Below are positions 13,705 to 26,149 of a stretch of 46,018 bases of DNA, one piece after another (positions within the stretch are counted from its first letter, which is position 1; the number at the start of each line of letters is the position of its first letter). The notes below the pieces were generated by a model. The model was not told where the DNA came from. It ran no database searches and was given only the letters and a program-made list of their open reading frames with translations. The position numbers and the translations under genes are program-made. Origin of the DNA: Actinomycetota bacterium (GTDB lineage Bacteria > Actinomycetota > Acidimicrobiia > Acidimicrobiales > CADCSY01); the NCBI GenBank assembly GCA_019348495.1, contig JAHWJI010000007.1:1-46018 (forward strand), written 5' to 3'.

Positions 13705-13984
13705 CGTCGGTGCGCTCGGTGATCGAGCGGGCCCTCTGCAGTTGGGCCACGAGCGCGTCGGCGGCCAGGCCGAACGTACGGGCGGGGATGGTGATGGTCG
13801 CCTGGGCGGAGCGCACCACCACCTCGCCGTCGTCACCGGCGGCGAGGTCGTCGATCCACTCCCAGCGGATGGCGGTGTGCTCGTCGCCCGGACCGAAGGT
13901 GGCCACGCCGTGCAGGTCCACCCGGAGCCGCTGGAGCTCACCGGAGGGGGCCCGGATTTCGACCTCGACGCTGCGCCTGCCCAT
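13685..13984 (-). CDS. Small 99-residue soluble protein, unknown
   Basis: Not recognised. The frame stays open far upstream, but the protein-like part begins at the ATG at 13984 (MGRRSVEVEIRAPSGELQRL). It predicts an alternating beta-strand domain (VEVEIRAPSGELQRLRVDLHG; EHTAIRWEWIDDLAAGDDGEVVVRS; ATITIPARTFG) and a closing helix (ADALVAQLQRARSITERTDVIAEL), which resembles small PH-like folds. It is convergent with cpfC (20-bp overlap) and divergent from cgoX, sitting inside the heme cluster. Coding character is good and the reverse frame there carries no gene except at the two ends. Confidence 0.6.
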   Translation of the reverse strand: MGRRSVEVEIRAPSGELQRLRVDLHGVATFGPGDEHTAIRWEWIDDLAAGDDGEVVVRSAQATITIPARTFGLAADALVAQLQRARSITERTDVIAELS

Positions 13985-14032
13985 CCGCCCATCCTGCCAG
14001 CCCCGCCGCCCGCCGTGTCGGGAAGCTCGGGG

Positions 14033-15418
14033 GTGACGAGGGTCGTGGTCATCGGTGGGGGCATCGCCGGCCTGGCCGCTGCCCACCACCTGGCTGACCG
14101 ACGCGACGTGCATGTGACGCTGTGCGAGGCCGGTTCCCACCCGGGCGGCAAGATCCGCACCGAGGACTTCGCCGGGGTGGTGCTCGACCTGGGGCCCGAC
14201 GCCTTCCTGGCCCGCCGGCCCGAGGCGCTGCAGCTGTGCCGGGAGCTGGGCCTCGAGGACGAGCTCGTCCCCCCTGCCACCAGCGCCGCCTACGTGTGGT
14301 GCCGGGGCCGGCTGCGGCGCCTGCCCGAAGGGCTGGTGCTGGGGGTGCCCACCGACCTCGGCGCCCTGGCCCGGTCCCGGGTGCTGTCCCCGCTGGGACT
14401 GGCCCGGGTGGCGCTCGAGCCTTTGGTGCCGGGTCGGCGCCTGGCCGGCGACGAGGCGCTCGGGGCCGTGGTACGCCGGCGCCTGGGCGACGAGGCGCAC
14501 CGCACTCTGGTCGACCCGCTGGTCGGGGGCATCAACGCCGGCGACACCGACCGGCTGAGCATGGAGATGACCGCACCGCCCCTGGCTGCGGCCGCCCGGG
14601 CCCGGCGCAGCCTGGTCGGCGCTGCCCGTCGGGCGGCGGTGCCCGGTCGGCGGGGCCCGGGCGGCCCGGCGTTCCTCACCCTGGCGGGCGGGCTGTCCCG
14701 CTTGGTCGAGGCCCTGGTGACCCGGCTGACGGCGGCAGGGGTCGAGGTGCGCACCGGTGCGCCGGTCGACGCCCTGGAGCCGTCGGGGGACGGAGGGTAC
14801 CGGCTCCGGCTGGCCTCCGGCGCCGTCGAGGCCGACGCCGTGGTCGTGGCCACCCCAGCCTGGGTCGCCGGCCGCCTGCTGGCGCCCCACGCACCCGAGG
14901 CGGCGGCGACGCTGGCCGCCGTCGACTACGCGTCGGTGGCGCTGGTGGCCCTGGCCTTCCCGGCGTCGGCGTTGGGCCGCCCGCTCGACGGCAGCGGTTT
15001 CCTGGTGGCCCGGGGGGAGGGTCGGCTCATGACCGCCTGTTCGTGGGCCTCCTCCAAGTGGGCCCACCTCGATCCCGGCGACCAGGTGGTGCTGCGGGTC
15101 TCGGCCGGACGGGCGGGCGACGCCCGGGCCCAGGCCCTCGACGACGAGGCGCTCGTCGCCCGCCTGGGACTGGAGGTGGGCCAGGCGCTGGCCATCACCG
15201 CCCCGCCCAGCGAGGTCCGCGTCACCCGCTGGCCCCGTGCCTTTCCCCAGTACGCCCCCGGCCACCTGGCGCGGGTGGCCACAGCTGAGGCGGAGCTGAC
15301 GGCTCGTCTCCCGGGAGTCGCCCTGGCCGGCGCCGCCCTGGCCGGCGTGGGCCTTCCTGCCTGCATCGCCTCGGGCCGACGGGCAGGCGATCGGGCCGCC
15401 GGCCCGCTCGGGGGCTGA
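14033..15418 (+). CDS. cgoX: FAD-dependent coproporphyrinogen/protoporphyrinogen oxidase (HemY/CgoX)
   Basis: Oxidises a porphyrinogen to the porphyrin using FAD and O2. 461 residues. The dinucleotide motif VVVIGGGIAGLAAAHHLA starts the protein, followed by VTLCEAGSHPGGKIRTEDF and LDLGPDAFLARRPEAL, typical of HemY. The DPLVGGINAGDTDRLSM segment and FLTLAGGLSRLVEALVTRL are also characteristic, as is the closing GVALAGAALAGVGLPACIASG. In actinobacteria the substrate is usually coproporphyrinogen III. Start: GTG at 14033 with GGAAG about 8 nt upstream; an in-frame GTG at 14015 would add six residues. It completes the hemE-cpfC-cgoX set; the final enzyme (ChdC/HemQ) and others are not in the window. 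Confidence 0.94.
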   Translation: MTRVVVIGGGIAGLAAAHHLADRRDVHVTLCEAGSHPGGKIRTEDFAGVVLDLGPDAFLARRPEALQLCRELGLEDELVPPATSAAYVWCRGRLRRLPEGLVLGVPTDLGALARSRVLSPLGLARVALEPLVPGRRLAGDEALGAVVRRRLGDEAHRTLVDPLVGGINAGDTDRLSMEMTAPPLAAAARARRSLVGAARRAAVPGRRGPGGPAFLTLAGGLSRLVEALVTRLTAAGVEVRTGAPVDALEPSGDGGYRLRLASGAVEADAVVVATPAWVAGRLLAPHAPEAAATLAAVDYASVALVALAFPASALGRPLDGSGFLVARGEGRLMTACSWASSKWAHLDPGDQVVLRVSAGRAGDARAQALDDEALVARLGLEVGQALAITAPPSEVRVTRWPRAFPQYAPGHLARVATAEAELTARLPGVALAGAALAGVGLPACIASGRRAGDRAAGPLGG

Positions 15419-15461: not shown

Positions 15462-16667
15462 GTGGGCGACCCCAGCATCCTGGCGCTGATCATGGCCGGC
15501 GGCGCCGGCACCAGGATGGCGCCGTTGACCGACCACCGGGCCAAGCCGGTGTTGCCCTACGCAGGGGTCTATCGCCTGGTCGACTTCCCTCTGAGCAACT
15601 GCGCCCACAGCGGCATCGGCGATGTGTGGGTGCTCCAGCAGTTCCAACCTCACGCCTTGGGCCAGCACCTGGCCGGCGGGCGACCGTGGGACCTCGACCG
15701 CACCCGGGGTGGGCTCGAAGTGCTGTTCCCCCACCAGGGCGACGAGGAGAGCGGTTGGCACCAGGGCAATGCCGACGCCATCTACCGCAACCGCTCTGTC
15801 ATACGCCAATTCGACCCTGACATCGTGGTGGTGTTGAGCGCCGACCACGTCTACAAGCTCGACTACCGGGAGGTGGTGGCCACCCATCTCCAACGGGACG
15901 CCGAGCTCACCATGGTGACCACCGTGGTGGCCAGCGACGAGGTCGGCCGCTTCGGCAACGTGGAGGTGGACCACGACGGCCGGGTCCGGGAGTTCCGCTA
16001 CAAGCCCGACGAGCCGCTGAGCGACGTGGTGAGCACCGAGGTCTTCGTCTTCGACGCCGGCCGGCTGCTCGACGCCCTCGACGAGCTGGCCGGCGACGGC
16101 GACGACGCCGCGCTGGAGGACTTCGGCGATCAGCTCCTCCCGTTCTTCGTACGCCGCCAACGGGTCTGGGAGCACCGCTTCCATGCCTACTGGCGCGACG
16201 TCGGCACCCACGAGAGCTACTGGCGATCGCACATGGACCTGCTCGAAGCCGAGCCATCCCTGCGCCTGGACGACCCGTCCTGGCCCATCCTCACCACCGC
16301 CGGCACCCGCCCGCCGGCCCGGCTGTACGACACCGCCTCGGTCGACAACTCCCTGGTCTCGCCCGGCTGCATCGTGCGGGGACAGGTGCGGCGATCGGTG
16401 CTGGGGCCGGGGGTGGTCGTCGAGGAAGGCGCCGAGGTGCACGACTCGGTCCTCCTGCACGAGGCGGTGGTCGGGTCGGGGGCGCTCGTGGCGGGGGTGG
16501 TGGCCGACATGGGCGTGCGCATCGGCCCCCGGGCCTCGGTGGGCTCCAGGCCCGAGCCGGCGCCGGGTCGCGGTGACGACGACCTGGTGATCCTGGGCGA
16601 GGGGGCGGAGGTGCCGGCCGGCGCCGAGGTGGGCCCGGGGAGCCGCAAGAGCACGTCGGAGGACTGA
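15462..16667 (+). CDS. glgC: Glucose-1-phosphate adenylyltransferase
   Basis: Makes ADP-glucose from ATP and glucose-1-phosphate, the committed step of glycogen synthesis. 401 residues. The nucleotidyltransferase motif IMAGGAGTRMAPLTDHRAKP and YRLVDFPLSNC are unmistakable; WHQGNADAIYRN and VVLSADHVYKLDY follow, with VGRFGNVEVD (the F-G-N segment) and WRDVGTHESYWRSHMDLL. The C-terminal left-handed beta-helix is seen as VDNSLVSPGCIVRGQVRRSVLGPGV. It ends in a variable acidic tail. The stop codon is flush with that of the convergent nucleoside hydrolase gene (TGA|TCA). glgX lies at the start of the window. Confidence 0.95.
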   Translation: MGDPSILALIMAGGAGTRMAPLTDHRAKPVLPYAGVYRLVDFPLSNCAHSGIGDVWVLQQFQPHALGQHLAGGRPWDLDRTRGGLEVLFPHQGDEESGWHQGNADAIYRNRSVIRQFDPDIVVVLSADHVYKLDYREVVATHLQRDAELTMVTTVVASDEVGRFGNVEVDHDGRVREFRYKPDEPLSDVVSTEVFVFDAGRLLDALDELAGDGDDAALEDFGDQLLPFFVRRQRVWEHRFHAYWRDVGTHESYWRSHMDLLEAEPSLRLDDPSWPILTTAGTRPPARLYDTASVDNSLVSPGCIVRGQVRRSVLGPGVVVEEGAEVHDSVLLHEAVVGSGALVAGVVADMGVRIGPRASVGSRPEPAPGRGDDDLVILGEGAEVPAGAEVGPGSRKSTSED

Positions 16668-18529: not shown

Positions 18530-18561
18530 TCACCACCTCACCACCTCACCACCTCGGCACC
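18530..18561. repeat. Tandem octamer TCACCACC across the galK stop
   Basis: Three perfect head-to-tail copies of TCACCACC (18530-18553) and a degenerate fourth (TCGGCACC). The second copy contains the galK stop codon, so copy-number slippage would change the C-terminus (GAEVVRW) of galactokinase. Confidence 0.6.
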
Positions 18562-19530
18562 TCCGACGGCCTGGACGCGCCAGCCCCGACGAAGCGTGCC
18601 GGGCCTGGTCAGCGCCACCACGCAGCCACCGAAGCCGGCGCCGGTGAGGCGGGCACCGTGCACACCCGGGGTGGCCACCAGCTCTGCCACCAGCGCGTCG
18701 AGCCGCGGGGTCGACACCTCGAAGTCGACCCTGAGGCTTTCGTGGCTGGCGACCATCAAGGCCCCGCAGGCCGCCACCTCGCCTGCGGCCATCGCCGCCA
18801 CCATGTCCCGTACCCGGCGGTTCTCGGTCACCACGTGGCGGGCCCGAGCACGCACGACAGGGTCGGCCACAGTGGCCACGTCCTGTGCCGTGGCCTGGGC
18901 GAGGGGGCCGATGAGGGCGATGGCGGCCTCGCACTGCGCCCGTCGCTCGGCGTAGGCCGATTCGGCCAGTCGACGGACGTCTCCTGAAGGGACCACCACC
19001 ACCTCGACGTCTTCGGGGATGGGCACCGGCGTCACCGCCAGCGTCGTACAGTCGATGAGCAGCGCGTGGCCGGCGACACCTGCCGCCGAAGCGAGCTGGT
19101 CCATCACCCCGCACGGCACCCCGCTGGCCAGCTGCTCGGCCCGCTGGCAGGCCAGGGCCAGCTCGAGCGCCGACCCCTCGAAGCCCAGCGCCAGGGCCAG
19201 CGCCACCTCGAGGGCCGCGCTGGAGGAGAGCCCGGCGCCGACCGGCAAGGTGGTGGACACCACCCCGGTGAAGCCCCGCGCCGGTGTGGTCACCGCCACC
19301 ACGCCGGCCACGAAGCGGGCCCACGGCGGTTCGCACTCCTGGGGTTCAGCCACGTCGAGGGGGACGACCGCCGGGCCGGGCAGCTCCTCGGAGGTGAGCC
19401 GCACCTCGTCGCCGCCGGGGACACCCTCCACCGTGGTGGCCAAGTCGATGGCCATGGGCAGCACCAGCCCGCCGGTGTAGTCGGTGTGGTCGCCGATGAG
19501 GTTGACCCGACCGGGGGCGGTGGCCAGCAC
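18538..19530 (-). CDS. galK: Galactokinase
   Basis: Phosphorylates galactose at C1 with ATP, first enzyme of the Leloir pathway (GHMP kinase fold). 330 residues; the short N-terminus before APGRVNLIGDHTDYTGG is like that of mycobacterial enzymes. Motif 2 is PVGAGLSSSAALEVAL, the CGVMDQLASAAG segment follows, and motif 3 is LTGAGFGGCVVAL. The GTG start at 19530 is three bases after the galT stop and, unusually, in the same frame (TAG CGC GTG). Last gene of the five-gene galactose operon; its 3' end carries an octamer repeat. Confidence 0.94.
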   Translation of the reverse strand: MLATAPGRVNLIGDHTDYTGGLVLPMAIDLATTVEGVPGGDEVRLTSEELPGPAVVPLDVAEPQECEPPWARFVAGVVAVTTPARGFTGVVSTTLPVGAGLSSSAALEVALALALGFEGSALELALACQRAEQLASGVPCGVMDQLASAAGVAGHALLIDCTTLAVTPVPIPEDVEVVVVPSGDVRRLAESAYAERRAQCEAAIALIGPLAQATAQDVATVADPVVRARARHVVTENRRVRDMVAAMAAGEVAACGALMVASHESLRVDFEVSTPRLDALVAELVATPGVHGARLTGAGFGGCVVALTRPGTLRRGWRVQAVGGAEVVRW

Positions 19531-19533
19531 GCG

Positions 19534-20505
19534 CTATCCGGCCGCTCGCAGCGTGGCTGCCGCCCGCTCCGGCGCCACGTCACTGAGGAAGGCGCCGGCG
19601 CCCAGCTCGGACCCGGCCAGGTACTTCAGCCGGTCGGCGGCCCGGTGCAGCGGGGTGAACTCGAGGCGGAGGTGGCTCACCGCCTGCCACTCGCCGTCGG
19701 CGGCCGGCGCCTGGTGCATGGCCATGACGTAGGGCAGCGGGAACCCGAAGAGGGCGTCGTAGCGCTGCAGCAGGTCCTCGAGGATGGCGGCCAGGGCGTC
19801 ACGGTCGGGATCGCTCAGGTCGAGCAGCGACGGGGCGTGGCGGTGGGCGACGACGTGGACCTCGTAGGGGAAGCGGGCGGCGAAGGGGACGAAGGCGATG
19901 AAGGCGTCGTTGCCGGCCACCAGGCGCAGCCCGTCGGAGCGTTCCTGGGCCACCACGTCGCAGACCACGCACGTGCCGTGCTCGGCCAGGTGGCGCCCAG
20001 CCACCGCCAGCTGGCGGGCGGGCACCGGCGGGATCTCCGGGTAGCCGTAGATCTGGCCGTGGGGATGGTGCAGGGTGACGCCCACCACCTCGCCACGGTT
20101 CTCGAACACGAAGACGTAGGCGATGTCGCGGCGCCGCCCCAGCGCGGCGTAACGCTCAGCCCACACGTCGACCAGGAGCCGGATGCGGGCCCGGCCCAGC
20201 AACGCCAGGCTCGCCTGGTGATCGTCGGAGTAGACGACGACCTCGGTGGCGCCCACGGCCGGCAGCACCTGGTGGAGGCCGGAACCGGCGACGTCGGGTG
20301 GCGGCGGATGGGCGACCATCGACGGGAAGCGGTTGTCGAACACGGCGACGTCGAACGACGGCCACGGCACCTCCGTGGGCGCCGTCGGGTCCGTGGTGGG
20401 GCACAGCGGACACTGCTCGGAGGGTGGCAGAAAGGTCCGGTCCTGGCGGTGGGTGGCGAAGGTGACCCACTCACCGCTGAGCGGGTCACGACGGCGCTCG
20501 CTCAA
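19534..20505 (-). CDS. galT: Galactose-1-phosphate uridylyltransferase
   Basis: Exchanges UMP between UDP-glucose and galactose-1-phosphate, giving UDP-galactose. 323 residues. The start is DPLSGEWVTFATHRQDR, then a zinc-type CPLCP, FDNRFPSM, and the active-site HHPHGQIYGYPEIP with the nucleophilic His between Pro-flanked His residues. C-terminal HLRLEFTPLHRAADRLKYLAGSE is typical of the family. Translation begins at a TTG that overlaps the GH2 stop codon (TTGA). UDP-galactose formed here can feed the mutase encoded two genes upstream. Confidence 0.95.
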   Translation of the reverse strand: MSERRRDPLSGEWVTFATHRQDRTFLPPSEQCPLCPTTDPTAPTEVPWPSFDVAVFDNRFPSMVAHPPPPDVAGSGLHQVLPAVGATEVVVYSDDHQASLALLGRARIRLLVDVWAERYAALGRRRDIAYVFVFENRGEVVGVTLHHPHGQIYGYPEIPPVPARQLAVAGRHLAEHGTCVVCDVVAQERSDGLRLVAGNDAFIAFVPFAARFPYEVHVVAHRHAPSLLDLSDPDRDALAAILEDLLQRYDALFGFPLPYVMAMHQAPAADGEWQAVSHLRLEFTPLHRAADRLKYLAGSELGAGAFLSDVAPERAAATLRAAG

Positions 20506-23258
20506 CGAGCCACCGCCCAGTGGTGGCTGTAGCGGGCCACCCGCCGGCCGTCGGCCAGGCCATCCTCCTCCACCTCGAGCAGCGCTCTGGGCACCGAGGC
20601 CCAGCCCAAGAGGTCGGCCAGCAGCGCCAGCGCAGCAGCGTCACCCTTGGCCGCGGGGCCGCACAGGCGGTACTGGCAGAAGACCAGGCGCCCGGCGCCC
20701 ACCTGGTGGCTGCCCACCACCGTGCCCGTCAGGGCACCGGGAACGGGCTTGTAGGCGATCACCACAGGGGTGTCGGGGAAGGGCGCACCGTCGATGTCGA
20801 GCACCACACTGCGGGCCTGGACGGTCGAGTCCTCGGCCACCAACACGTTGCGCCGGGACAGCGAGGCGATCGCCCCGCTGTCGGTGGTGAAGTGGAAGAC
20901 CGATGATCCCCACACCGTCTCGACCGGCTGGAGGGTCAGCGGGATGGGATAGTGCTGGGACCGGGCGACGTCTTGGGCCAGCACCACGACGGTGCCCCCT
21001 TCACCCAGGCACGACCGAACCTGGCGGGCGGCCTCGGGCCCGAGCTCCTCCTCGCCGACCACCATGGGGCCCTGGTCGCCGATCACCACGCCCAGTGCTT
21101 CGAGCACGACACGGGTGGCCGGTGAGGGCCCCGGGAGGCAGACGCCGATCCCCTCGGCCGATGGTGCGGGGACCACGTGCACGGGATAGCGGTTCTCGGC
21201 CACGAGGCGACCACCCGAGCGCAGGCGCACCACGAGGTCGTGGGAGCCCGGCACGCCCGGTGCCGGCAGCGCCACGTGGCCGACCGGCGCGGCGCGGTAG
21301 CCTTCGATCCCTGAGAGGTGCATGGCGTGGGCCGACTCGCCGAAGCGGGCCTCGATCTCCACGTCGGAGAGGGCTTCGCCGTCGTTGGCCACGTACAGGG
21401 GCGCACGCACCATGGACCCGGCCACCACCACCAAGCTGTCGAGTTGCAGGATGGGCAGGACGACCTGGTTCACCCTGGCCATCTCCGCCACCGCCATGGG
21501 CTTGGGCTTTCGGTGCAGGTCGAGCAGCCCGTTCAACTCGTGGGGGACATCGGTGAGCTCGGTGAGGCAGTACCCCCCGATGTGGTCGTGGCGGCGGAAG
21601 ACCTCGGCCTGGAGGCGGTCGGAGAGACCCTGGTAGCGCTGGGTCTCGCTGATGAAGCGGGCGATGGAAGCCGGCCAGCGGGTGGCCGCCAGCCCACTGG
21701 CGTAGATGGCCCGGGTGTCCCAGAACGGAGGGTCGGAGAGCTCGGGCATCCCGGGCAACCCCCAGTCCCCGAACTCGGTCACGAGCAACGGTCGGTCCAG
21801 ACGCCGCCAGTACGCAGAGGACCGCTCGATCTTGTCGAGGTAGTCGGCGTGGAGGCGCCCGTACCAGTGGGCGGTGAGCACGTCGCCGGCGAAGACGTGC
21901 TCGGGATCCGGCTCCACCCAGTCGTTCTCGATGACCGGGCGGGTGGGGTCGCATTCCCGGGCGGCGGCCACCAGGGCCCGGGCGAATCGCTCGTAGCCGG
22001 CCCAGGAACGGACCTCGGGCCGGTAGAGGCCCAGCTCGTTCATGACCGACCACAGGATCACGCTCGGATGGTTGCGGTCGCGCTCGATCTGGTCGCGCAC
22101 GGCCTGCACGGCTCGGGTGCCCACCAGGGAGTCGCCGTCGGCACCCAGCTCCTCGTGGGCGATGGGCTCGGCGATGGGGATGTCGCAGTGCAACAGCATG
22201 CCGAGCTCGTCACAGACGTCGAGGTAGGTCGGGTCGAAGGCCTTGATGTGCAGCCGGAGGGTGTTGAAGCCCATGGCTCGGGCTGCGCCCACCTCAGCCT
22301 CGATCTCGGCCCTGGTGCCCTCGGCGTAGAGCCGATCCGCAGTGAAGCCCTGCACCAGCACGCTCTTCATGCGGTAGGGCTCACCGTTGAGCACGAGCCG
22401 CGTGCCGTCCACGCTGACGGTCCGTAGCCCGAAGCGCACGGCCCGGGCGTCGCTGGCCTGGCCGTCGACCACGACGTCGACCACTGCGGTGTGCAGCTGA
22501 GGCTCGGCCGGGCTCCAACGCAGGGCCCGAGTCTCGCCGAAGGCCACGACGGCCACGGCGCCGTCACCCGGCTCGATGACCAGGCTGGAGCCACCGAGGC
22601 GGCCCACCGCTCGCGCCGCCACCTCGGCTCGCCGGGGAGCGTCACTGCGGTTGGCGAGGGTGATGTCGATGCGCAGATCGTCGGGGTCGGCGTTGACGAA
22701 CACCTTGTCGAGGATCACCGGCCCGTGACGGCGCAGTGTGACCGACTGCCAGATCCCCCCGTAGGTCATGTAGAGGCTGGGCCGGCTGGGGAAGACGTGG
22801 TTGGCCCATCCCTGCTTGCCGTGGGCCAGGCGGAGGTGCTCGGGGTCGTCGACGGCCGGGTCGACGACCCGCACGACGAGCTCGTTGGGCCCCGCTCGCA
22901 GGACCCCCGTCGGGTTCAGCGTGAAGGGGGTGAAGGCGTTGTCGTGGGCGCCGATCGGCCGGCCGTTGAGCCACACCTCGGCCAGGTCCATCACCGCCGC
23001 GAAGCACAGGCTCCACCAGCCGCCGGCGTCGTCGAGCGAGAAGCAGCGCCGGTACCAGGCCTCCCCGTCGAGCTCGATCCGTCCCTGGGCCTCCCACAGA
23101 CCGGGCACCCAGATGGGCTCGGGCGGGCACACCTCGAGATCGGCGAGCGAGCGTGCCGTCGGAAAGAACTCCCAGGCACCGTCGAGGCGGACTCGGCCGT
23201 GCTCGTCGGGCACGAGACGGTCGGCAACGGCGTGATCCTGCGAAGCCTGGCCGGTCAC
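20502..23258 (-). CDS. Glycoside hydrolase family 2 (beta-galactosidase/beta-glucuronidase fold), exact substrate unknown
   Basis: 918 residues if translated from the GTG at 23258, which has GAGGG a few bases upstream and lies 7 bp after the mutase stop; a GTG at 23300 would overlap the mutase gene by 35 bp. Domains: sugar-binding jelly roll (about 20-185, with WYRRCFSL and DLAEVWLNGRPIG), immunoglobulin-like (185-280), TIM barrel (280-585) and about 330 further residues of beta-rich sequence. The acid/base is Glu in NHPSVILWSVMNELG (about 408); the nucleophile is Glu in RPLLVTEFGDWG (about 495). No signal peptide, so it probably acts in the cytoplasm. In an operon with galT, galK and a UDP-galactopyranose mutase, a galactosidase or galactofuranosidase activity is the natural guess. 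Confidence 0.9.
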   Translation of the reverse strand: MTGQASQDHAVADRLVPDEHGRVRLDGAWEFFPTARSLADLEVCPPEPIWVPGLWEAQGRIELDGEAWYRRCFSLDDAGGWWSLCFAAVMDLAEVWLNGRPIGAHDNAFTPFTLNPTGVLRAGPNELVVRVVDPAVDDPEHLRLAHGKQGWANHVFPSRPSLYMTYGGIWQSVTLRRHGPVILDKVFVNADPDDLRIDITLANRSDAPRRAEVAARAVGRLGGSSLVIEPGDGAVAVVAFGETRALRWSPAEPQLHTAVVDVVVDGQASDARAVRFGLRTVSVDGTRLVLNGEPYRMKSVLVQGFTADRLYAEGTRAEIEAEVGAARAMGFNTLRLHIKAFDPTYLDVCDELGMLLHCDIPIAEPIAHEELGADGDSLVGTRAVQAVRDQIERDRNHPSVILWSVMNELGLYRPEVRSWAGYERFARALVAAARECDPTRPVIENDWVEPDPEHVFAGDVLTAHWYGRLHADYLDKIERSSAYWRRLDRPLLVTEFGDWGLPGMPELSDPPFWDTRAIYASGLAATRWPASIARFISETQRYQGLSDRLQAEVFRRHDHIGGYCLTELTDVPHELNGLLDLHRKPKPMAVAEMARVNQVVLPILQLDSLVVVAGSMVRAPLYVANDGEALSDVEIEARFGESAHAMHLSGIEGYRAAPVGHVALPAPGVPGSHDLVVRLRSGGRLVAENRYPVHVVPAPSAEGIGVCLPGPSPATRVVLEALGVVIGDQGPMVVGEEELGPEAARQVRSCLGEGGTVVVLAQDVARSQHYPIPLTLQPVETVWGSSVFHFTTDSGAIASLSRRNVLVAEDSTVQARSVVLDIDGAPFPDTPVVIAYKPVPGALTGTVVGSHQVGAGRLVFCQYRLCGPAAKGDAAALALLADLLGWASVPRALLEVEEDGLADGRRVARYSHHWAVAR

Positions 23259-23265
23259 GCCGCCC

Positions 23266-24651
23266 TCACCGGATGCCGTCGCCCGCCACTCCTTCCCCAC
23301 GGGCGATCCACACCGACTCGGGATCGCCGAAGAGGACCTGGTTCACGAACTCCACACCCTGCATGGCCGAGTGGTCCATGTTGCCGATCTCATAGAGCCA
23401 GGCGCCGAAGCGGCCCCGGGACCAGATCCCCTGGGACCGCAGCCAGGGCTGGATGGTGCCCAGGCTGGCGTCGCGGGTCACCGACGGCACGGGATAGCTC
23501 ATCTCCGGCGAGCACAGCCACGTGGTCACCACCCGTTGGCGGTCGTCCTCCTCCATGAGACCGGTGGCCACCAGCCCGTCGATGACCCGGTCGACGATGG
23601 TGGTCGGGTCCTCCGGCTTGTGGGTCGACTGCGACGTCTCGGTGAGGAGCAGGGTCTGGCCGGGGCGGGGGGTGATGTAGGGCGAGTAGTTGGAGAGGTA
23701 GGTCACCCGGTAGAAGGGGACCTCCGGCTCGGGGAAGTAGATCCAGTTCTTGGTGGTGTCGGCCTGGCGGTCGATGCCGACGCCCACGATGTGGCTCCCG
23801 CTCCAGTGGAGCCCGTCCACGGCTCGGCGCACCGCGTCGGGAACGCTCTCGGTGCAGCCGATCAAGTGGTTCAGCGGCATGGTCGAAAGCAGCACGTCAT
23901 AGGGCCAGACCCGCCCGTCGGCAGTGCGCACCTCCTTGGCCGCCGGGTCGACCGAGGCCACCGGCGTCTCCAGCTCCAGGTGGTCCTCCACGAAGCGGCG
24001 CATCCCGTCGTAGAGGAAGCCGGTGCCGCCCCGCAGCGGGTACCTGAAGGTGTTGTTGGGGCCCCACGACACCTGGTCCTCCCCCAGGATGACGTTGCGC
24101 AGGATCGTCTCGGCGTCGACCACCGAGACCCGCTCGCCGATCCACACGAAGTTCATGAGCTCGGCGGGGGTGGCCCACACCTTGAAGTTGTAGGGGATCA
24201 TGAAGTGCCGGGCGATGCCCGGCCCCATCACCGCGTCCACCCACTCACGGAAGTTGGTGGGCTGGTGCTCCTGGCGCTGGGTCTGGATCAGGCCGCTCAC
24301 GCAGTCGAACACCGTCTGGGGGTCGAGGTCGCGGATGTTGTTCTGGAACGGGTAGGGGATGAAGCGGTCCTCCATCCACACCCAGGCCTCGCGCTGCAAC
24401 TCGGTGAAGTCGTCGCCCATGAGCTTGCTGACGAGCTCGTCGTAGTAGTCGTAGTGACTGAACATGACGTGGCCGCCGATGTCGTAGGTGAAGCCGGCCT
24501 CGTCGGTGAACGAGGTGGCCAGACCCCCCACGTAGTCGTTGGCTTCGAGGATGACCCAGTCCTCGTGCCCCAGCTCTTGCAGGCGGTAGCCGGCGCCGAG
24601 GCCTGTGGGGCCGGCGCCGATGATGACGATACGAGGCTCACCTTGGCTCAT
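23266..24651 (-). CDS. glf: UDP-galactopyranose mutase, eukaryotic-type
   Basis: FAD enzyme that contracts UDP-galactopyranose to UDP-galactofuranose. 461 residues from the ATG at 24651, which overlaps the upstream stop as ATGA. The FAD motif is IVIIGAGPTGLGAGYRLQEL. A chain of motifs matches what I recall of the Aspergillus fumigatus enzyme rather than bacterial Glf: GGHVMFSHYDYYDEL, PYPFQNNIRDLDP, PYNFKVWATP, WGPNNTFRYPLRGGTG, HIVGVGI, NWIYFPEPEVPFYR, LSNYSPY, and IWSRGRFGAWLYEIGNMDHS, whose late Tyr and Asn bind UDP-Gal in that enzyme. Length is between bacterial (about 390) and fungal (about 510) forms. A related FAD amine oxidase is the alternative. Confidence 0.82.
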   Translation of the reverse strand: MSQGEPRIVIIGAGPTGLGAGYRLQELGHEDWVILEANDYVGGLATSFTDEAGFTYDIGGHVMFSHYDYYDELVSKLMGDDFTELQREAWVWMEDRFIPYPFQNNIRDLDPQTVFDCVSGLIQTQRQEHQPTNFREWVDAVMGPGIARHFMIPYNFKVWATPAELMNFVWIGERVSVVDAETILRNVILGEDQVSWGPNNTFRYPLRGGTGFLYDGMRRFVEDHLELETPVASVDPAAKEVRTADGRVWPYDVLLSTMPLNHLIGCTESVPDAVRRAVDGLHWSGSHIVGVGIDRQADTTKNWIYFPEPEVPFYRVTYLSNYSPYITPRPGQTLLLTETSQSTHKPEDPTTIVDRVIDGLVATGLMEEDDRQRVVTTWLCSPEMSYPVPSVTRDASLGTIQPWLRSQGIWSRGRFGAWLYEIGNMDHSAMQGVEFVNQVLFGDPESVWIARGEGVAGDGIR

Positions 24652-25796
24652 GCCGACTTGATTCTGCCGGTCGAACCGGTGCCGGTCGAGTCGGTGAGGT
24701 CGATCGTGGCGCCGCCGGCGAGGCGCAGCATGGCCGACATGCGCTCGGTGATGCCGTCCCATTGGTGGTGGTCGAGCACGGCCGCCACCTGCTCGGACCA
24801 TCCCTCGCCCCGTCCGTGGAGGGCCAGGCGGCAGGCCTGGGCGAAGCCGACCACGTCGTCGGCCAGCTCGACGACGTCGGCGTGGTCGGCCACGACGTCG
24901 GGCACCTTGGTGCTGACCACCGGCAGCCCCGCGGCCAGGTACTCGAGGGTCTTGGTGGGGCTGATGGAGCGGGTCGCCTCGTTGAGGGCGAAGGGCATGA
25001 GCGCCACGTCGAAGCCGGCCATCGCCCCCGGGAGCTCCTCGTAGGCCCGCGGGCCCAGATAGGCGAGATTGGGCGCTTGGGGGAGCCCGGCGGGATCGAC
25101 CTTGACCACCGGCCCGACCATGTGGATGTCCCAGTCGGGCAACTTCCGGCACAGGCCGGCGATCAGATCGAGGTCGAGGCGCTCGTCGATCACACCGACG
25201 TAGCCGGCGACGGGCCGGGGGGCGCCACCGCGGGCACGCCGGGCATCAATGGCCGGTTCGTAGTGGTCGGGGGCCACGCCGCTCGGGAAGCAGTGGCTGG
25301 CCTCGGGCCGGCGTTCGACGACACTGCGGTGCAGGGAGCGGCCACCGGTGAAGACGACGTCGGCCTCACGTAGCGCTTGGCGCTGGCGCAGCACGAGGGC
25401 GGGATCGGCGAGGTGAAAGGCAGCCAGGTCGTCCATCACGTCGTAGACGAACAGCGACGGGTGCAGCGCCCGGGCCAGGCCGAGAGCCATCGGCGTGTAC
25501 ATCCAGACGGTCCGCTCGTCCGGCGGCCCGAGGAGCGCGCCGAGCTCGCGGGCGTAACGACCGCACACCTGGTCGTCGAACCCGTCGGCCTCGCTGGCCA
25601 TCTCGAGCCACACCCGGGTGACATGCTCGTGGTCCTCGAAGCGCACGACCGGCTCGGGCGTACCGGCCACGGTGACGGGTTCCTCGACGAACCAGGTGCG
25701 GTCGTAGCCGGCCGACAACCGGGACACGAGCTGCTGGGGTCGCTGCCAGACGAAGGTCCAGCGGAGGTGGGACAACACGACGAGCTCAGGCGACAT
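24648..25796 (-). CDS. Glycosyltransferase, GT-B fold (GT4/TuaH-like)
   Basis: Probable sugar transferase of 382 residues. It opens with LVVLSHLRWTFVWQRPQQLVSRLS, the entry motif of TuaH-like enzymes often found next to glf genes. The Rossmann half includes YDVMDDLAAFH and ADVVFTGGRSLHRSV; the nucleotide-sugar half has VAGYVGVIDERLDLDLI, IHMVGPVV, and SISPTKTLEYLAAGLPVVST (the conserved donor-binding Glu). Start: ATG at 25796 with GGAG 9 nt upstream; an ATG at 25823 lacks a ribosome binding site. Coupled by ATGA to the mutase, which makes UDP-Galf a likely donor, though this is inferred from context. Confidence 0.87.
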   Translation of the reverse strand: MSPELVVLSHLRWTFVWQRPQQLVSRLSAGYDRTWFVEEPVTVAGTPEPVVRFEDHEHVTRVWLEMASEADGFDDQVCGRYARELGALLGPPDERTVWMYTPMALGLARALHPSLFVYDVMDDLAAFHLADPALVLRQRQALREADVVFTGGRSLHRSVVERRPEASHCFPSGVAPDHYEPAIDARRARGGAPRPVAGYVGVIDERLDLDLIAGLCRKLPDWDIHMVGPVVKVDPAGLPQAPNLAYLGPRAYEELPGAMAGFDVALMPFALNEATRSISPTKTLEYLAAGLPVVSTKVPDVVADHADVVELADDVVGFAQACRLALHGRGEGWSEQVAAVLDHHQWDGITERMSAMLRLAGGATIDLTDSTGTGSTGRIKSA

Positions 25797-26149
25797 CGGT
25801 GGATGCTCCGTTCGATTCGACATAGAGGGGCTGCGGGGCTGGAGTAGGGCGCGCAGAAAGGTGAGGCGCGGCGCGCCGCTGAACAGTGAGGTACGACGAA
25901 GTCCCGCTACCCCGGGGAAGGCCAGGCCAACCCTCAGGGGGCGGGCCACCGAACGCGCCGGCGTCCGTGCGTGTGCTGCCGTGAGTGGTGGGCCTTCACC
26001 GGAGCGTCTCCTGGAGCTTGCGCATCAGGTCCGGTGCAAGCGAGCGCCGGGTGACGGCGACGGCGGGCGGCGCGAAGATGGGGCGAGCTGCGGGAGCAGG
26101 AGAAGTTGGCAGCGCGCCGCCGCCGCCACACCCGTGTCGGAGGATGTCT
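25797..26149. other. Divergent intergenic region between the galactose operon and the protease-cyclase cassette
   Basis: 353 bp with no convincing gene. It must hold promoters for both directions, but no clear -35/-10 pair is visible on either strand. Seen: the 12-bp palindrome GCGGCGCGCCGC around 25868-25879 and an imperfect inverted repeat CTTGCGC ... GTGCAAG around 26018-26041, either of which could be an operator or a leader hairpin. Confidence 0.4.

Follow-up and report, generated by a model that had tools for sequence, protein, structure and literature searches.

Introduction

A gene in an actinobacterial genome raises the question of whether a UDP-galactopyranose mutase (UGM) of the kind described from fungi and protozoa is at work in bacteria and, if it is, which pathway it serves and how it is related to the eukaryotic enzymes. 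UGMs are drug targets because mammals lack galactofuranose (Galf). The eukaryotic GLF was reportedly described in a 2005 paper. Open-access reviews divide UGMs by domain of life, assigning the canonical Glf to prokaryotes and a longer class to fungi and parasites, with prokaryotic and eukaryotic enzymes only 14–18% identical (PMC3624792). We did not find a description of the eukaryote-type class in bacteria in the open-access literature.

The gene lies in the window, by which we mean the whole 46,018-nt stretch of DNA that was analysed, and the coordinates given in Table 1 are exactly those of its ATG-to-TGA frame on the minus strand. The same interval read on the plus strand is also open, as a GC-rich shadow frame without evidence, and was dropped. 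The DNA of the window has a GC content of 68–75% with no break in composition, as in ordinary bacterial sequence, and a search of the window for RNA families and tRNAs returned none. Eukaryotic contamination is ruled out by this composition, by the bacterial neighbours, and by relatives of the gene at 71–85% identity in other actinobacterial genomes, several of which keep the same neighbours. The translation contains all eight motifs that the first-pass annotation had quoted from it (FSHYDYYDEL, PYPFQNNI, PYNFKVWA, WGPNNTFR, RGGTG, SNYSPY, SRGRFGAW, and GNMDHS).

Table 1. Coordinates of the operon and of the genes flanking it in the window.
Feature	Position	Strand	Remarks
Glycosyltransferase (GT), candidate galactofuranosyltransferase	24648..25949	-	PF13692; SHLRWxFVxQRPQ motif; stop overlaps UGM start by 4 bp (ATGA); gene may in fact start further downstream, homology beginning near 25820
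Eukaryote-type UGM	23266..24651	-	461 aa, 461 codons; ATG start, TGA stop; assigned by homology, residues, and fold
GH2 glycoside hydrolase	20502..23300	-	Profile in keeping with GH2 group III (beta-D-galactofuranosidase / alpha-L-arabinofuranosidase); gene may in fact start downstream of 23300
galT, galactose-1-phosphate uridylyltransferase	19534..20505	-	TTG start overlaps GH2 stop by 4 bp
galK, galactokinase	18538..19530	-	3 bp after galT
GlgC-like nucleotidyltransferase	15462..16667	+	Flanks operon region on the other strand
Protoporphyrinogen-oxidase-like gene	13742..15418	+	Flanks operon region on the other strand

Sequence Relationships

A phmmer search of the Protein Data Bank aligned almost the whole length of the window UGM with the Trypanosoma cruzi enzyme (TcUGM; 4dsg, E 9e-116) and the Aspergillus fumigatus enzyme (AfUGM; 3uka, E 9e-100, with 3uka and its mutants at about 1e-99). 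As judged from the sequences, chance is excluded as the source of this likeness. The next matches after the UGMs were flavin oxidases at E 1e-9 and weaker, aligned mostly over the FAD-binding part. A multiple alignment gave full-length identities of 44% to TcUGM and 41% to AfUGM. The two eukaryotic enzymes are 49% identical to each other in the same type of alignment and 47% identical according to the literature (PMC3624792), so that by distance the window UGM falls inside the class and is not a remote relative of it.

Profile libraries give a less specific picture. Pfam reported only Amino_oxidase and other generic FAD/NAD-binding models for the protein, no UGM-specific Pfam-A model matched it (PF03275, which covers canonical Glf, included), and its best NCBIfam model was the hypothetical PRK07208, far below the cut-off of that model. 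These generic or sub-cut-off matches explain the oxidoreductase names of database members, among them plasmid homologues annotated as "FAD-dependent oxidoreductase." A canonical Glf matching PF03275 was likewise absent from the source genome (2.2 Mb, 98% complete).

Active Site and Predicted Fold

The ligand contacts of AfUGM have been catalogued (PMC3624792), and residues were compared after a one-residue offset of the crystal chain had been corrected. All of the catalogued UDP-Galp contacts but one agree (AfUGM/window UGM), namely Y104/Y100, F106/F102, Q107/Q103, F158/F150, N163/N155, W167/W159, R182/R174, N207/N199, Y317/Y305, R327/R315, Y419/Y386, Y453/Y420, and N457/N424, and the histidine loop G61-G62-H63 of AfUGM corresponds to G59-G60-H61. 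The single exception is Q458, replaced in the window UGM by a methionine that canonical bacterial UGMs also carry at this position (PMC3624792). Of the shared residues, R182, R327, Y317, Y419, Y453, N207, and N457 contact the pyrophosphate and Galp, and Gln107, with Tyr104 and Phe158, the uracil. Among 75 family members, R182, R327, Y317, Y419, Y453, N457, N163, W167, Q107, and H63 (AfUGM numbering) are invariant; R182 and R327 are the two arginines that matter for the in vivo function of AfUGM (PMC3893270). The uracil-contacting Gln107 has been stated to be absent from bacterial UGMs, and the double-glycine histidine loop to be unique to eukaryotic UGMs (PMC3624792). Both features, described as not bacterial, are standard in the bacterial members collected here.

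The pyrophosphate-binding residues alone are no proof of UGM activity, since the paralogous PRK07208 family shares most of them. PRK07208 members L002 (G000:C134:5502-6860), L013, L014, and L016 keep R182, Y317, R327, Y419, Y453, N457, and W167, and the family aligns to canonical Glf at E 1e-10. It may perhaps comprise a further nucleotide-sugar flavoenzyme.

An AlphaFold2 model built on an alignment of the window UGM and 27 locus relatives reached a mean pLDDT of 90. Its top Foldseek match in the Protein Data Bank was TcUGM (4dsg, TM 0.93, rmsd 1.4), and ranks 1–34 held only chains of TcUGM and AfUGM, followed by protoporphyrinogen oxidases at a TM of about 0.75 and an rmsd of 5–6. No canonical Glf appeared among the best 50 matches.

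The first-pass annotation had called the enzyme Aspergillus-type and distinct from the short bacterial Glf, and homology, residues, fold, and the lack of a PF03275 match bear this out. The UDP-binding Tyr and Arg residues to which it had pointed are all present, and sequence, trees, and fold alike place the protein with TcUGM and AfUGM, apart from amine oxidases and protoporphyrinogen oxidases. With high confidence, the window UGM is predicted to synthesise UDP-Galf.

Distribution and Origin of the Class

A scan of genome contigs recovered 417 related stretches from Actinomycetota, Chloroflexota, Planctomycetota, and Desulfobacterota and from three phage contigs. Actinomycetota, Chloroflexota, Planctomycetota (mostly Phycisphaerales), and Desulfovibrionaceae account for most of the 80 that were retained, and Armatimonadota and Hyphomicrobium contribute one each. 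Strong matches occurred in about 9 of 296 genomes of the window's class, 14 of 297 of a Desulfobacterota set, 4 of 201 of a set around L040, and 1 of 299 Pseudomonadota. L040 is labelled "Pleurocapsa minor," but it groups with Chloroflexota in the trees, and cyanobacterial membership is not claimed. The window gene was initially assigned to a branch otherwise known from fungi and protozoa; the assignment stands, whereas the branch itself proves to be widespread in bacteria and present on some phages. Within the window's class, 9 of the 296 genomes carry the eukaryote-type UGM and 13 the canonical Glf, with no overlap, and canonical Glf occurs in none of 50 named genomes carrying the eukaryote-type enzyme (base rate 13/296); at such base rates this mutual exclusion is only suggestive and statistically not telling.

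Three maximum-likelihood trees, with two eukaryotic sequences (T. cruzi and A. fumigatus) and a very distant PRK07208 outgroup, agreed in outline. The window UGM belongs to an Actinomycetota clade within a Chloroflexota/Actinomycetota group. The two eukaryotic enzymes are sisters (support 96/96 and 100/95 in two trees), and the pair joins the phage copy L097 (81/69, then 95/90) and copies from Desulfobacterota (91/83, then 100/99). Trees constrained to group the eukaryotes with the window clade were rejected (p-AU 2e-54 and 6e-67), which means that the window gene neither came recently from such a eukaryote nor was the source of the eukaryotic gene. The suggestion that this gene is informative about the origin of eukaryotic UGM needs an amendment: by the AU test, the eukaryotic enzymes do not have their nearest bacterial relatives in the window clade.

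It seems that the "eukaryotic" branch belongs within a bacterial family, and transfer of UGM from bacteria to eukaryotes is the better reading of the trees, not a proven one. A more detailed scenario, which we put forward as speculation with the odds against it, is that the class is bacterial and phage in origin and was taken up by eukaryotes from a lineage whose present-day representatives are phage genes and Desulfobacterota, and that the UGM of phage contigs L097 and L098 would supply UDP-Galf to a TET-associated-type glycosyltransferase two genes away, furanosylating phage DNA or virions. Acquisition of the bacterial genes from eukaryotes is unlikely. When all bacteria were forced into one clade apart from the eukaryotes, at a cost of 2.7 and 8.4 log units, the constraint was not rejected (p-AU 0.27 and 0.22), and the two eukaryotic enzymes can thus be placed outside all bacteria, on a tree with only two eukaryotic sequences and the remote PRK07208 outgroup. 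The best trees nevertheless nest TcUGM and AfUGM within sequences from bacteria and phages (100/99 with Desulfobacterota and phage L097). The bacterial members are also by far the more diverse, with deeper branches among them (Pantoea, Methylomagnum, Ewingella, and L010), and a union of the window clade and the two eukaryotic enzymes is firmly rejected (p about 1e-54 and 1e-66).

The two phage contigs (L097:4986-10755 and L098:100-5907) share a module that runs UGM, ParB-like protein, TET-associated glycosyltransferase, sulfotransferase-like ORF, and small and large terminase subunits. Its UGM is of the eukaryote type and, at 53% identity, the closest to TcUGM that was found; the glycosyltransferase on L097 matches PF20691 with 29.2 bits against a cut-off of 27.5. 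Furanosylation of phage DNA by this module is possible. No Tet/JBP oxygenase was found on the phage contigs, whose records are fragments. A third phage contig of 61.8 kb (L099:2246-6392) encodes a eukaryote-type UGM (37%) shortly after a C5-DNA-methyltransferase-like ORF. On Streptomyces plasmids L112 and L113, UGM-like genes (36%) stand together with glycosyltransferase, NUDIX, phosphotransferase, and hypothetical genes in a conserved cassette that looks like one for a natural product or a nucleotide sugar.

The Operon and Its Glycosyltransferase

The window UGM is the second gene of a minus-strand operon with the order GT-UGM-GH2-galT-galK and junctions of 3–4 bp at three of the four gene boundaries. 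A profile of six operon GH2s scored highest against 7XYR (263 bits) and 9J6N (251 bits), the latter a crystallised Streptomyces beta-D-galactofuranosidase (9J6N/9J6M, GH2_18), and lower against LacZ1 (163 bits, about 90–100 below these two) and 3k46-type beta-glucuronidase (about 138 bits). The subfamilies of 7XYR (GH2_19) and 9J6M (GH2_18) together form the furanose-specific group III, a group known for beta-D-galactofuranosidase and alpha-L-arabinofuranosidase activities (PMC12243196). The NE motif of the window enzyme (N421-E422) is intact and invariant in the alignment. The operon GH2 fits among the group III furanosidases, its substrate being a prediction. The best Protein Data Bank match, 7XYR, was deposited as a "beta-glucuronidase," a label not supported by PMC12243196, which calls it uncharacterized. 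Homologues of galE are present in the genome, none above the curated cut-off, so the source of UDP-Gal rests on galT/galK or an unassigned epimerase.

The best independent evidence for UGM function comes from the upstream GT. This GT lies directly upstream of the eukaryote-type UGM in 10 of 18 named loci of Actinomycetota, 7 of 11 of Chloroflexota, and 3 of 41 of Planctomycetota. Most planctomycete and Desulfobacterota members lack it as a neighbour, and the few flanking genes that were checked in these two phyla gave no information. Only four of the 296 class genomes contain the GT, which adjoins a eukaryote-type UGM in all four; the chance of this is about 4e-7 under independence, though the genomes in question are related.

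Homologues of the GT on plasmids (36–50% identical) were inspected in 15 neighbourhoods. A canonical glf is fused to the GT or next downstream in 10 of these, being fused in Sphingobium and Azospirillum (PF03275 confirmed) and the next gene in Comamonas, two Deinococcus, Mesorhizobium, Caballeronia, Skermanella, Chryseobacterium, and Ensifer. A eukaryote-type UGM takes this place in three: it is fused to the GT in Pantoea and Methylomagnum, and on an Ewingella americana plasmid a UGM-type open frame missing from the listed annotation directly follows the GT (L144:3865-5265). Neither class was seen beside the GT in the remaining two, on plasmids of Azospirillum thermophilum and Aureimonas. On the Methylomagnum plasmid, the genes also follow one another as in the window, GT-UGM-GH2-galT. 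One GT partner is thus accompanied by either of two UGM classes, which replace each other, and the presence of two such dissimilar enzymes in a single slot is best explained if both supply UDP-Galf.

The fused Pantoea protein (L114:7673-11401, 1242 aa) has an N-terminal part of about 390 aa, followed by the GT and then the eukaryote-type UGM. In the Comamonas protein, a GH1-like part of about this size precedes the GT, and the canonical glf is a separate, adjacent gene.

Proposed Function

The window gene very probably encodes a UGM of the class previously known from fungi and protozoa, acting in an operon that would make and turn over a Galf glycan. Beyond the computed features (the class of the enzyme, its conserved active site and its fold, the gene order, the swap of UGM classes beside the GT, and the absence of Glf), we infer catalysis, the specificities of the GT and GH2, and the nature of the glycan. 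By a mechanism transferred from TcUGM and AfUGM, reduced FAD would attack the anomeric carbon of UDP-Galp through N5 to give a flavin-Galp N5 adduct, and the sugar ring would open and re-close as a furanose, releasing UDP-Galf. The GT encoded by the overlapping gene directly upstream may then use UDP-Galf and transfer Galf, the downstream GH2 may trim or recycle Galf (or Araf) residues, and GalK and GalT may return or supply galactose to the UDP-Gal pool. Overall, the operon would make and turn over a Galf-containing surface or storage glycan in the source actinobacterium. Direct reduction by NAD(P)H has been reported for TcUGM and is said to be lacking in prokaryotic UGMs (PMC3308961), which makes a bacterial UGM reducible by NADPH a specific prediction.

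A mutase of the same class might have another main substrate, such as UDP-arabinopyranose (to UDP-Araf) or UDP-GalNAc, with the GH2 serving as an arabinofuranosidase. GH2 group III does include alpha-L-arabinofuranosidases besides galactofuranosidases (PMC12243196), but the Galp contacts R182, N207, and N457 are the same as in AfUGM, galT and galK lie in the same operon, and the GT partner is one common to canonical Glf; we consider a different main substrate very unlikely. It is scarcely credible that the protein only resembles UGM and is instead a redox flavoenzyme akin to the amine oxidases or protoporphyrinogen oxidases. The generic Pfam models, the sub-cut-off PRK07208 match, and the oxidoreductase names of plasmid homologues would favor such a reading, but Pfam-A yielded no UGM-specific model for this class, PF03275 being that of canonical Glf, and sequence, residues, fold, and tree all side with TcUGM and AfUGM, away from the oxidases.

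Read as a UDP-Galf-forming mutase, the window gene belongs to a second UGM class, widely carried by environmental bacteria and found on some phages under oxidoreductase names, and with it the division of UGMs by domain of life breaks down. This class replaces canonical Glf beside the same GT and brings lineages that lack Glf into Galf metabolism. It also allows ideas on how eukaryotes came by Galf synthesis to be tested, and it provides bacterial enzymes with which to compare NADPH-dependent flavin reduction. The enzyme family is known, its chemistry is expected to be known chemistry, and the sequences were already in databases under other names. Relative to the open-access literature, in which we did not find them, three elements are new: how widely the family is spread among bacteria and phages, its substitution for Glf next to a single GT, and an operon that includes a GH2 of the furanosidase group.

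Comparison With Known Systems

Three known groups of proteins bear comparison with the window UGM. First, the PRK07208 family ("hypothetical protein," protoporphyrinogen-oxidase-like, with L002 in the same genome) consists of homologous flavoproteins with most of the pyrophosphate-binding residues, but its members are only about 27% identical to the window UGM, and Lys, Thr, and Ser replace Gln107, Asn163, and Asn207. Second, canonical Glf (PF03275; E. coli, K. pneumoniae, M. tuberculosis, and D. radiodurans) shares the presumed reaction and, in other phyla, the upstream glycosyltransferase partner, and differs in the profile that it matches and in its absence from the top fold matches of the window UGM. 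Finally, the eukaryotic UGMs (T. cruzi 4dsg; A. fumigatus 3uka/3ukh/5vwt; L. major) share full-length homology at 41–44% identity, the substrate and FAD contacts, the double-glycine histidine loop, and the fold. Unlike these, the window UGM resides in a bacterial host and operon and, at 461 aa, does without the insertion that follows the SNYSPY motif in AfUGM.
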